Of a stretch of DNA of 64,000 nt, positions 3,613-50,013 are shown in pieces. The stretch spans positions 1 through 64,000 of the forward strand of contig JABLTJ010000001.1 in the NCBI GenBank assembly GCA_013166775.1, read 5' to 3'. Made by a program: the position numbers and the translations under genes. The notes under the pieces were generated by a model, which did not search any database, had not been told where the DNA came from, and saw nothing but the letters and a program-made list of their open reading frames with translations. Each line of letters opens with the position of its first letter. Position 1 is the first letter of the stretch. Source of the DNA: Promethearchaeati archaeon (GTDB lineage Archaea; Asgardarchaeota; Heimdallarchaeia; Heimdallarchaeales; Heimdallarchaeaceae).

Positions 3613-3690
3613 GGGGCAGTGGTCTAGCTCGGTTATGACAACTCCCTTACGCGGAGTAGGTCGGCGGTTCAAATCCGCTCTGCCCCACCA
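3613..3690 (+). tRNA. tRNA-Val(UAC)
   Basis: The acceptor stem GGGGCAG/CTGCCCC, the D-arm, the five-pair anticodon stem ACTCC/GGAGT and the T-arm with GGTTCAAATCC fold normally. The seven-base anticodon loop CTTACGC gives anticodon TAC. Discriminator A is followed by an encoded CCA (3688-3690). No intron is present, unlike three other tRNA genes in the window. Confidence 0.95.
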
Positions 3691-11938: not shown

Positions 11939-12055
11939 TGGTGCGGGGAGGGAGATTCGAACTCCCGAACCACTAAGGATCCGGTTACTCATCTAGCCCT
12001 TATTTCAGATGATAAATCTTGAGCCGGACGCCGTTGACCGCTTGGCTATCCCCGC
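11939..12055 (-). tRNA. tRNA-Leu(CAA) with canonical intron
   Basis: Read on the minus strand, the gene starts GCGGGGATAG, has a long variable arm as expected for leucine tRNAs, and ends with discriminator A and encoded CCA (11941-11939). The anticodon stem TCCGG/CCGGA encloses the loop CTCAAG...A, giving anticodon CAA. A 32-nt intron interrupts the gene after position 37. Confidence 0.93.
11986..12017 (-). other. Intron of tRNA-Leu(CAA), position 37/38
   Basis: The exon bases CTCA pair with TGAG at the intron end, leaving bulges AGA and TAA on opposite strands. This is a bulge-helix-bulge whose two cuts (AG^A and TA^A) remove exactly these 32 bases and restore a seven-base anticodon loop. 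Confidence 0.88.
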
Positions 12056-26076: not shown

Positions 26077-26634
26077 ATGGTACCTATTGCGCAACTAAAC
26101 AAGGATTATTCGCTAATAACAGATAAAAGTGGTAATTCCATCTATAGTCAAGGTTGGTTTGGAAAGTTCACAAAATCGAATCATTTGAAGCTTAATCCAT
26201 TTGAGACCGTCTTATTGCTAGAAAGAAAGAAAATAGAGGTTGTTGATACTAATAAAGAATCACTTCCGGTTTCAAAAGTGGTTGCATTTTTTTCAGAAAA
26301 TATCCAGAACTTTCTTGTCCATTATCTTCTTTACAAAGATCTTAGGGGTAGAGGATATGTTGTGAAAAAGCATTCTATTATTGGTAAATATTTCGAACTT
26401 TATGAGAGGGGAGCAACACCAAATAAAGCAAAACATTTAGCTCTTGTGGTACCAATGATTGAGGGAGTACTCTTTAATATAGATGACATTGATCAAATAG
26501 TTTCAGAAGCAAAGAAAATAAACAAACAACTAATCTTTGCAGTAATTGATAGTTTGGGTGATGTGTCTTATTATAGTGTTAGTGAGCTAGAGTTTGAGGC
26601 AGTAAACAAAAATATAGGTGAAGAAATCAAATGA
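26077..26634 (+). CDS. endA: tRNA-splicing endonuclease subunit (EndA), perhaps the structural subunit
   Basis: The C-terminal nuclease domain is recognisable from HYLLYKDLRGRGYVVKKHS to IFAVIDSLGDVSYYSV. Of the usual Tyr-His-Lys triad I see Tyr109 (FELYERG) and Lys150 (INKQLIFAV). The His position of the usual HSxYLV motif aligns, without gaps, with Lys117 in NKAKHLALVV; a one- or two-residue gap could instead bring His120 into place. If the His is truly absent, this would be the non-catalytic partner of a heteromeric enzyme, the type able to cut relaxed bulge-helix-bulge introns like the tRNA-Ile one at 49930-49960. The stop overlaps the next start by 4 bases (ATGA). Confidence 0.85.
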   Translation: MVPIAQLNKDYSLITDKSGNSIYSQGWFGKFTKSNHLKLNPFETVLLLERKKIEVVDTNKESLPVSKVVAFFSENIQNFLVHYLLYKDLRGRGYVVKKHSIIGKYFELYERGATPNKAKHLALVVPMIEGVLFNIDDIDQIVSEAKKINKQLIFAVIDSLGDVSYYSVSELEFEAVNKNIGEEIK

Positions 26635-28439
26635 AATATGTTCCTGATACCTCTACTATAATAAATGGTCAGTTTTTAAAATACATCAAAGAACAGCAAG
26701 ATACAGATGAGATTATTCTTTCGCGAGTAGTTTTAGCAGAAATTGAAAACATGGCAAATCAAGCTAAAGCAACAGGAATGGTTGCTCTTGAGGAACTCCA
26801 AAGGATGAGAGATTTTTGTGCACAAAAAGGTTTAGGCATTATAATTGATGGAACTAGACCTAATTCTTATCAGATTAGGGGTGCTCCTGCTGGAGAGTTG
26901 GATGCAAAAATACGAGAACTTGCTGAAGAATACCAAGCGGTTCTTATTACTTCTGATAGAGTAATGGCAGAAATAGGAAAAGCCGAAGGATTAGCTGTAG
27001 TATATATTAAGGAATCTCCAAAGAGCATAGGAAAGAAGATAGAAGATTATTTTGATGAAAGAACTATGTCTATCCATCTAAGAGAAGACAATCCTCCATT
27101 AGCAAAAAAAGGAGTTCCTGGAAACTTTGAATTAGTTGCATTATCAGACGAAGGAATTCTTTCCCGCGAGTTTCTTGAAGATCTTGCAAAAGATATTGTA
27201 GAGAGAGCTAGTAGAGAAAAGGATAGTTTCATTGAATCAGATAAACATGGAACAACAGTTGTTCAGCTGAAGAATTCTAGAATAGTTATCATCAGACCTC
27301 CCTTTAGTGATGCTATGGATATAACTGCAGTAAAACCAATTCTTAAACTGTCCTTAAAGGATTATAGTCTTGATTCCAAGCTACTTGAAAGAGTAGAAAA
27401 GCAAGCTGATGGGATTATAATAGCCGGGCCACCTGGAGCTGGAAAGAGTACTTTTGCTACAGCTATTGCTGAGTTTTATGCGGATAAAGACAGGATTGTT
27501 AAGACTTTCGAAAATCCAAGAGATCTGCAAGTAGATAACAGGATTACTCAAATGTCTGGTTTTGAAGGAGATATCTCGGCTTCAGCTGATTTAGTGTTAT
27601 TAATGAGGCCTGATTATGTTATCTATGATGAGTTAAGAAAAACGAAGGATTTTGAGACCTACTCAGACTTAAGATTAGCAGGTATAGGTCTAATAGGTGT
27701 GGTTCATGCAACCCAAGCAATTGATGGCATACAACGTTTTCTGCGAAGGGTTGATTTAGGGATAATACCTTCAATAGTTGATACAATTATCTTCATAAAT
27801 AAGGGTGACATAGCAGAGGTTTATACACTCGAAATAACAGTCAAGCTACCGTCAGGCATGAAAGAACGAGACTTAACCCGTCCTGTAATATTAGTGAAGG
27901 ATTTCCATACAAATACATTGGAATATGAGATATACACTTTTGGAGAACAAATTGTTGTTGCTCCATTATCAAAAGCAGACAAAGCTAAGGCTGGAAGAGT
28001 TAGAACAGAAATTTCCCCAATAACAATTCAGAAGGTATTAAAGAGATACTCAATTTATGATTATGATTATGAATTTGATCCTCCAGACTCACTAATACTC
28101 TATGTAACAAAAAAAGATAAACCTAGAATAATAGGAAAAGAAGGAAAACGAATTGATGAAATAGAACAAAAACTTGGTCTATCAATTGATGTTAAAACCT
28201 TTGATGAAAAAGAAACTGCTGAATTTGTTATTGATGTGTATCCTATTAAGAATAAAGTAAACCTTTCGTTTCCAAGTATTTTCATAGGTAAAGATGCATC
28301 CATTGCTATTAATGGGAAAGTTATAGTTCAATTAACTGTTGGAAAGTCTGGGGAAGTCAGTATAGATAAAAATAGTCAAGTAGGCAGAGAATTAATGGAT
28401 GCTTATTCAAAAGGAGCTACCATTACAGCTCTTTTTTAG
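26631..28439 (+). CDS. PIN-domain, PilT-like ATPase and KH-domain protein
   Basis: Three modules are seen in one 602-residue protein: an N-terminal PIN nuclease-like domain (about residues 1-130; YVPDTSTIING, and acidic LITSDRVMAEIG), a VirB11/PilT-type ATPase (about 200-430; Walker A GPPGAGKST, DYVIYDELRKTKDFETYSDL, GVVHATQAIDGIQRFL), and a KH domain near 500-545 (KDKPRIIGKEGKRIDEIEQKL). This fusion is conserved in archaea but its job is not established; RNA processing is likely. It is translationally coupled to endA through a 4-base overlap. Confidence 0.88.
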   Translation: MKYVPDTSTIINGQFLKYIKEQQDTDEIILSRVVLAEIENMANQAKATGMVALEELQRMRDFCAQKGLGIIIDGTRPNSYQIRGAPAGELDAKIRELAEEYQAVLITSDRVMAEIGKAEGLAVVYIKESPKSIGKKIEDYFDERTMSIHLREDNPPLAKKGVPGNFELVALSDEGILSREFLEDLAKDIVERASREKDSFIESDKHGTTVVQLKNSRIVIIRPPFSDAMDITAVKPILKLSLKDYSLDSKLLERVEKQADGIIIAGPPGAGKSTFATAIAEFYADKDRIVKTFENPRDLQVDNRITQMSGFEGDISASADLVLLMRPDYVIYDELRKTKDFETYSDLRLAGIGLIGVVHATQAIDGIQRFLRRVDLGIIPSIVDTIIFINKGDIAEVYTLEITVKLPSGMKERDLTRPVILVKDFHTNTLEYEIYTFGEQIVVAPLSKADKAKAGRVRTEISPITIQKVLKRYSIYDYDYEFDPPDSLILYVTKKDKPRIIGKEGKRIDEIEQKLGLSIDVKTFDEKETAEFVIDVYPIKNKVNLSFPSIFIGKDASIAINGKVIVQLTVGKSGEVSIDKNSQVGRELMDAYSKGATITALF

Positions 28440-44388: not shown

Positions 44389-44511
44389 TGGTGCGGGGAG
44401 GGAGATTCGAACTCCCGAACCACTAAGGAACGGATGACTTTTCTAGCCCTTTTTCTTGGTTTTTCAACTAGATCTTAAGTCCGCCGCCGTTGACCGCTTG
44501 GCTATCCCCGC
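44389..44511 (-). tRNA. tRNA-Leu(UAA) with canonical intron
   Basis: On the minus strand the gene has the same 5' end (GCGGGGATAGCC) and T-arm as tRNA-Leu(CAA). The anticodon stem GCGGA/TCCGT holds the loop CTTAAG...A, giving anticodon TAA. A 38-nt intron follows position 37; CCA is encoded (44391-44389). Confidence 0.93.
44436..44473 (-). other. Intron of tRNA-Leu(UAA), position 37/38
   Basis: The intron has TCTAG near its start pairing with CTAGA near its end, which forms the intron-side helix. The central helix between exon CTTA and intron AAAG has three pairs and one A-A mismatch, so the bulge-helix-bulge is relaxed. Removal restores the normal seven-base loop. It shares GGGCTAGA with the tRNA-Leu(CAA) intron. 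Confidence 0.82.
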
Positions 44512-49904: not shown

Positions 49905-50013
49905 GGGCCAATAGCTCAGCTTGGTTAGATGTTTAAAGGTTGCGTACCTTAAATTAACAAGCGCACGGCTGATAACCGTGAGGTCGGCGGTTCGAATCCG
50001 CTTTGGCCCACCA
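49905..50013 (+). tRNA. tRNA-Ile(GAU) with a D-arm intron
   Basis: Acceptor stem GGGCCAA/TTGGCCC, anticodon stem CACGG/CCGTG with loop CTGATAA (anticodon GAT), T-loop GGTTCGAATCC and encoded CCA (50011-50013) are normal. The D-arm GCTC...GAGC is interrupted by 31 bases between positions 23 and 24 of the mature tRNA. Removing them gives an ordinary archaeal tRNA-Ile. Confidence 0.95.
49930..49960 (+). other. Non-canonical intron of tRNA-Ile, position 23/24 in the D-arm
   Basis: Exon GTTA (49925-49928 area) pairs with intron TAAC near the intron end to form a four-pair central helix. Bulges GAT on one strand and AAG on the other flank it, with cuts GA^T and AA^G. The intron side continues as GTTTAA-A-GG paired with CCTTAAAT around the loop TTGCGTA. 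These cuts remove exactly 31 bases and restore the D-stem G22-A23-G24-C25. Confidence 0.88.

Follow-up and report, generated by a model that had tools for sequence, protein, structure and literature searches.

Bulge-helix-bulge (BHB) introns in the D-arm and at other non-canonical positions of tRNA genes are known from Crenarchaeota, including the Thermoproteales, and from other archaea (PMC4090602). Their transposition between tRNA genes is known in Thermoproteales, as set out in those parts of PMC4090602 and PMC4033280 that describe a 2010 study. tRNAscan-SE 2.0 found 673 non-canonical introns in 217 archaeal genomes (PMC8450103), and in 2024 non-canonical tRNA introns were reported in the Asgard lineages Atabeyarchaeia and Freyarchaeia (PMC11291895). 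A sequence-only reading of the DNA analysed here had placed such introns mainly in Thermoproteales and some other archaea, a view that the Asgard reports leave somewhat dated. Among open-licence papers we found no description of tRNA introns in Heimdallarchaea. How archaeal tRNA introns spread is unsettled, and the intron described here can be traced through 21 related genomes in which its sites are variously empty, filled or vacated, in a host lineage belonging to the archaeal group near the origin of eukaryotes.

The window, meaning the whole stretch of 64,000 nucleotides that was analysed, belongs to a Heimdallarchaeota MAG of 3.85 Mb that is 89% complete (G000). It carries a tRNA-Ile(GAU) gene with encoded CCA on the forward strand (49905-50013), delimited from the sequence, a tRNA and BHB parser and ARAGORN on the spliced form. 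The gene reads GGGCCAA TA GCTC AGCTTGGTTA GA^TGTTTAAAGGTTGCGTACCTTAAATTAACAA^GC G CACGG CTGATAA CCGTG AGGTC GGCGG TTCGAAT CCGCT TTGGCCC A CCA, where TGTTTAAAGGTTGCGTACCTTAAATTAACAA is the insert. The 5′ exon (49905-49929, tRNA positions 1-23) holds the 5′ strand of the acceptor stem, the D-stem strand GCTC, the D-loop and the letters GA, whilst the 3′ exon (49961-50013, positions 24-76) holds the anticodon GAT at 49971-49973 and is free of a 37/38 intron, as read from the sequence and by ARAGORN. Direct reading bears out the 31 bases that the sequence-only reading had placed between positions 23 and 24 (49930-49960), and with them a four-pair central helix of GTTA (49924-49927) and TAAC (49955-49958), flanked on opposite strands by the three-base bulges GAT and AAG. 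The predicted cuts fall after 49929 in the 5′ bulge GA^T (49928-49930) and after 49960 in the 3′ bulge AA^G (49959-49961); this is the standard cut geometry, shared with the 37/38 introns of the same genome. Between the helix strands, folding and alignment place an intron hairpin, GTTTAAAGG-TTGCGTA-CCTTAAAT (49931-49954). Its TTGCGTA loop lies at 49940-49946 as previously noted, with the minor correction that the inner hairpin contains one bulged A. The outer helix is short with one firm pair, and the BHB is therefore of the relaxed type.

With the 31 nt taken out, ARAGORN returns a perfect tRNA-Ile(gat); in the raw gene it finds no tRNA, and its intron mode wrongly names that gene tRNA-Leu(taa). 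The Rfam tRNA model gives the unspliced gene only 30.7 bits. Genes of this kind are overlooked or given the wrong name by standard tRNA finders, so that the annotated tRNA sets of Heimdallarchaea may be incomplete. We used a purpose-written parser that fits a cloverleaf with up to two introns, each with a BHB motif of standard cut geometry, and that permits no T-arm introns; the tRNA set of the genome combines Rfam hits with the output of this parser. When the site was not supplied, the parser picked cuts identical to those predicted for the insert. This agrees with the ARAGORN result on the spliced form, and the earlier claim that the cuts take out exactly the insert and restore the D-stem holds; moreover, the uninterrupted genes at syntenic loci read exactly as the spliced D-arm. 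In the Ile gene alone the cut could be shifted by one base (22/23 or 23/24) because there is an A at both ends, but in G003 and G013 the homologous introns have T or G as their last base, which fixes it at 23/24. Folding energy by itself is not proof of an intron, since the precursor folds only weakly better than shuffled sequences (z -1.95), and it was hence not used as evidence.

Homologous introns were found at the same tRNA position in 18 other genomes. In an alignment of 18 introns covering BHB and hairpin, 91.5% of cells are paired (90% in the central helix), and six pairs show changes on both sides that preserve the pairing, a number reached in 0 of 500 shuffles. Sliding the partner strand by 1-3 columns lowers pairing to 17-47%. 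The covariation is located in the hairpin. Since the 5′ strand of the central helix belongs to the D-loop, whose sequence the tRNA holds fixed, this helix changes on a single side; its outermost pair is missing in 5 of the 18 homologues. Unconstrained consensus folding still recovered the intron helix, and mispairings arose outside the intron because the exon arms are cut in the alignment. Taken together, precise presence and absence at a syntenic locus, covariation and a two-subunit splicing endonuclease in the genome (see below) uphold the reading as a non-canonical BHB intron. We put the probability that the insert is a genuine archaeal BHB tRNA intron at 23/24, with removal from the RNA predicted from sequence, at about 0.93.

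A class-wide pattern search for Ile(GAU) missed the genes with a 37/38 intron, which were then recovered with an intron model. The gene was obtained from 21 genomes of the family, and the D-arm intron at 23/24 occurs in only two of them, G000 and G017, where the insert of G017 is homologous, likewise 31 nt long and in the same place. Sixteen others carry an intron at 37/38, and three (G004, G008 and G012) are intron-free. D-arm and 37/38 introns were never found together in an Ile gene. At the syntenic locus the insert is absent from G005, G008, G012 and G003. By blastn, the flanks of G005, G008, G012, G004 and G017 align on one or both sides and those of G003 in pieces. In a MAFFT alignment the insert begins cleanly after TTAGA; part of the second exon is misplaced because some genes have a different intron, and therefore the exact ends were taken from the parser. 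The closest relative of G000 in the tree, G005, has a 37/38 intron that resembles that of G021 from the sister genus.

The genome contains a second gene with an intron at the same position. This gene, a tRNA(CAU) at C73:32898, has introns of 32 nt at 23/24 and of 22 nt at 37/38, and shares 81-85% identity with Ile(GAU) in its body. It is probably tRNA-Ile2, judged from this identity and from the presence of an initiator and another elongator-like CAU gene. We surveyed the CAU introns by pattern across the phylum and with a covariance model made from 18 introns. An intron of 31-32 nt at 23/24 is present in the tRNA(CAU) of 16 of the 18 genus genomes and of G021 in the sister genus. G017 and G004 lack it in a gene that is otherwise intact, and the upstream flanks of G013 and G017 are nearly identical, with the intron present in G013 and cleanly absent from G017. 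In a third genus, the single-contig genome G022 has a tRNA(CAU) with a 37/38 intron only. A homologous 23/24 intron was also found in a tRNA(CAU) on a contig binned in another family (L108, G048:C238), with flanks like those of genus g1; this contig is probably mis-binned and was therefore not counted as spread to another family. Two further matches of the loose phylum pattern (G079 and G190) were set aside, since neither could be confirmed as a D-arm intron.

The Ile and CAU introns are homologous. The Ile introns of G000 and G017 each score 15.5 in alignment with the CAU intron of G000 and up to 23.5 with other CAU introns, whereas the best of 3000 random introns under the same BHB pairing constraint reached 9.5 against the G000 CAU intron. 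The CAU intron is the older of the two, since it is widespread and common to the sister genus. By these comparisons the Ile intron is best read as a recent acquisition. Direction from CAU to Ile is likely because the CAU intron is older, the Ile copies are rare, and the gene that holds them is uninterrupted at this site in relatives; we regard such a transfer from tRNA(CAU) to Ile as probable. The CAU intron nearest to each Ile intron by similarity is not that of its own genome, and an attempt to assign the donor in this way failed, with similarity picking none.

With regard to the number of events, the data are compatible with one gain followed by loss in G005, with two gains and with exchange between species. 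A single gain in the ancestor of G000, G005, G013 and G017 with later loss in G005, as against two gains or an exchange between species, is a possibility that we hold a little short of even. G000 and G017 fall in sister pairs of one well-supported clade, and their Ile introns are 77% identical. However, the 37/38 intron of G005, the nearest relative of G000, with its resemblance to that of G021, is what would be expected if the old state was simply kept, and the Ile(GAU) gene of clade member G013 is missing from the recovered set. On a tentative footing, we propose that a short D-arm intron has been moving among the isoleucine-family tRNA genes of a single Heimdallarchaeal genus, entering Ile(GAU) in separate gains and leaving tRNA(CAU) by precise losses. 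Were this so, the same loci would offer empty, filled and vacated sites for comparison, and the mechanism by which archaeal tRNA introns are transferred, still unsettled, would become testable.

As to the route, we lean towards transfer through DNA: the intron may have passed between the two similar tRNA genes by homologous recombination or by gene conversion. The Ile and CAU genes have about 25 bases in common 5′ of the site and little 3′ of it, so that a gene-conversion tract would have to be very short on the 3′ side. Alternatively, an excised intron might have entered another tRNA by reverse splicing, with a DNA copy of the product then recombining into the chromosome. That homologous introns occupy exact splice-competent sites in different tRNAs fits such a path, as does the seeming loss of the 37/38 intron when the D-arm intron arrived, which a partly spliced RNA copy would bring about. 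Yet donor and recipient are close paralogues with the intron at the same site, for which DNA recombination suffices, and no match to a reverse transcriptase (RVT_1) was found in the G000 MAG, 89% complete as it is. This tips the balance towards the DNA route, and we consider movement at the RNA level unlikely.

A pseudogene or assembly artefact whose insert stays in place is highly improbable here: one T-stem pair is G-U and removal of the intron is predicted from sequence, but separate assemblies have homologous inserts at the same site, the introns covary, the acceptor stem has several differences from that of relatives and yet keeps every pair intact, and this is the sole Ile(GAU) gene detected by pattern search in the 89% complete MAG. 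Homologous inserts in other assemblies and covariation likewise rule out a chance insert or sequencing error. It had been suggested beforehand that relatives with an uninterrupted gene could point to an artefact at this site; such orthologues exist, yet they favour a recently gained real intron, because a second genome has a homologous insert at the same place and a homologue is widespread in a paralogous tRNA gene.

We then considered the splicing enzyme. G000 has two genes with PF01974 domains, one catalytic and one structural. The structural (beta) subunit of the tRNA splicing endonuclease is encoded in the window (26077-26634, forward strand; PF01974 match 4.8e-13), and in alignment with 1a79 and 5x89 its catalytic His is replaced. 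The catalytic subunit (G000:C97), with Tyr, His and Lys, can be aligned to chains 3p1z and 3ajv for most of its length, catalytic residues included; its His falls where 3p1z has His and where 3ajv, in which the His was mutated, has Ala. With a window subunit lacking the catalytic His, an (alpha-beta)2 enzyme is expected. An RtcB gene is also present in the genome. In the precursor, GTTA of the D-loop would pair with TAAC of the intron, the two-subunit endonuclease would cut in both three-base bulges, and RtcB would join the exons, after which the D-stem and the mature tRNA-Ile could form. We infer cutting and ligation in the cell from the anatomy of the gene and the presence of these enzyme genes. 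The structural subunit gene overlaps by four bases with a gene for a 602-aa ATPase, the pair covering window 26077-28439 on the forward strand, which suggests an operon. The ATPase shares 94% identity with one from Candidatus Heimdallarchaeota RS_9_76; for other Heimdallarchaeota the figure is 73-82%.

The Crenarchaea-specific loop (CSL) of the endonuclease has been linked to relaxed substrate choice and diverse intron positions (PMC12397907). In this loop Lys is followed by Pro or Val and then by a basic residue, said to be conserved among Crenarchaea. At the place of K44-P45 of the loop the G000 catalytic subunit has Lys-Pro (the Lys being Lys41), with GVRKPN aligned to DVEKPR. Across 226 Asgard genomes, nearly all have at least one PF01974 gene and most have two. 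Lys-Pro was found in 31/31 Asgard catalytic subunits of one set and in 11/12 of another, where G025 has Lys-Ala (L119-L148, L241-L254). With the motif found in almost all of the Asgard catalytic subunits that were read, the name "Crenarchaea-specific" looks too narrow, and its distribution fits a wider link between the loop and unusual intron sites. The residue that follows is not basic in G000 (Asn) or in G002, G004, G012, G019, G022 and G023 (Asn or Gln), and we therefore call the loop CSL-like and not a crenarchaeal CSL.

Lastly, we looked at the other tRNA introns. The parser returned 48 entries for G000, one of them a spurious overlap; 18 are genuine intron-bearing genes, nearly all with the intron at 37/38. 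A shifted 37/38 intron is likely for two entries that the parser put at 38, and also for a gene parsed as Leu(CAA) that is probably Trp(CCA). Two further loci were added by eye. One is an elongator-like tRNA-Met(CAU) whose 37/38 intron is long; the other is a tRNA-Phe(GAA) (L046, G000:C22:14825-15097) with a 33-nt T-loop intron at 59/60 and the BHB TTCA|AG^T / TGAA|AA^T. Introns thus occur in about 20 of 49 parsed tRNA genes, and non-canonical ones in three: Ile(GAU), tRNA(CAU) and Phe. The 37/38 introns of tRNA-Leu(CAA) (window 11942-12055), tRNA-Leu(UAA) (window 44392-44511), both on the reverse strand, and the elongator-like tRNA-Met (L041) have AAGGGCTAGA in common, and those of Leu-CAA and Met also TGAAATAAGGGCTAGA. 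Matches to the common element with at most one mismatch, irrespective of position, occur in 12 other family genomes; a shared intron origin and a guide-RNA element are both possible. The tRNA-Val(UAC) of G005 (L167, G005:C114) has a parsed intron near 25/26 and one at 37/38, and the Val(UAC) gene of the window (3613-3690) has neither. In other Asgard families, unrelated non-canonical inserts interrupt Ile(GAU) in G061 (L156), G073 (L157), G074 (L158), G075 (L159) and G072 (L160), the types being a 28-nt D-arm intron, D-arm inserts of 14-15 nt and anticodon-stem introns of 18-20 nt.

In summary, the Heimdallarchaeal intron belongs to a known class, and its series of gains and losses is unusually clean. 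Like the introns of Thermoproteales and other archaea it is short, of BHB type and away from 37/38, in a host with a two-subunit endonuclease (PMC4090602). Unlike them, it occurs in a different phylum with far fewer introns per genome. The D-arm sites given in that review include 20/21, 22/23 and 25/26; 23/24 is missing from the list as far as it is quoted there, which ends in "etc." and so is no proof of novelty. As with the transposed introns of Thermoproteales, the finding of homologues in different tRNA genes implies that introns were transferred after speciation. However, the present case concerns one intron at the same position in two similar tRNA genes, with syntenic empty and filled sites in close relatives and with the older host gene empty in G017. 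The locus resembles those of Atabeyarchaeia and Freyarchaeia in being an Asgard case of introns at non-canonical tRNA positions, but there introns occur in 92-95% of tRNA genes, a statement on frequency that leaves out Heimdallarchaeia (PMC11291895), against about 20 of 49 here, with non-canonical introns in three. The enzyme is like the crenarchaeal (alpha-beta)2 endonucleases with a CSL (3p1z, 3ajv, 2zyz; PMC12397907) in its separate subunits and in Lys-Pro at the K44-P45 position. It differs in the next residue, which in most of the near Heimdallarchaeal members sampled is Asn or Gln and not Lys or Arg, whereas most other Asgards sampled have Lys or Arg there, as in Crenarchaea.
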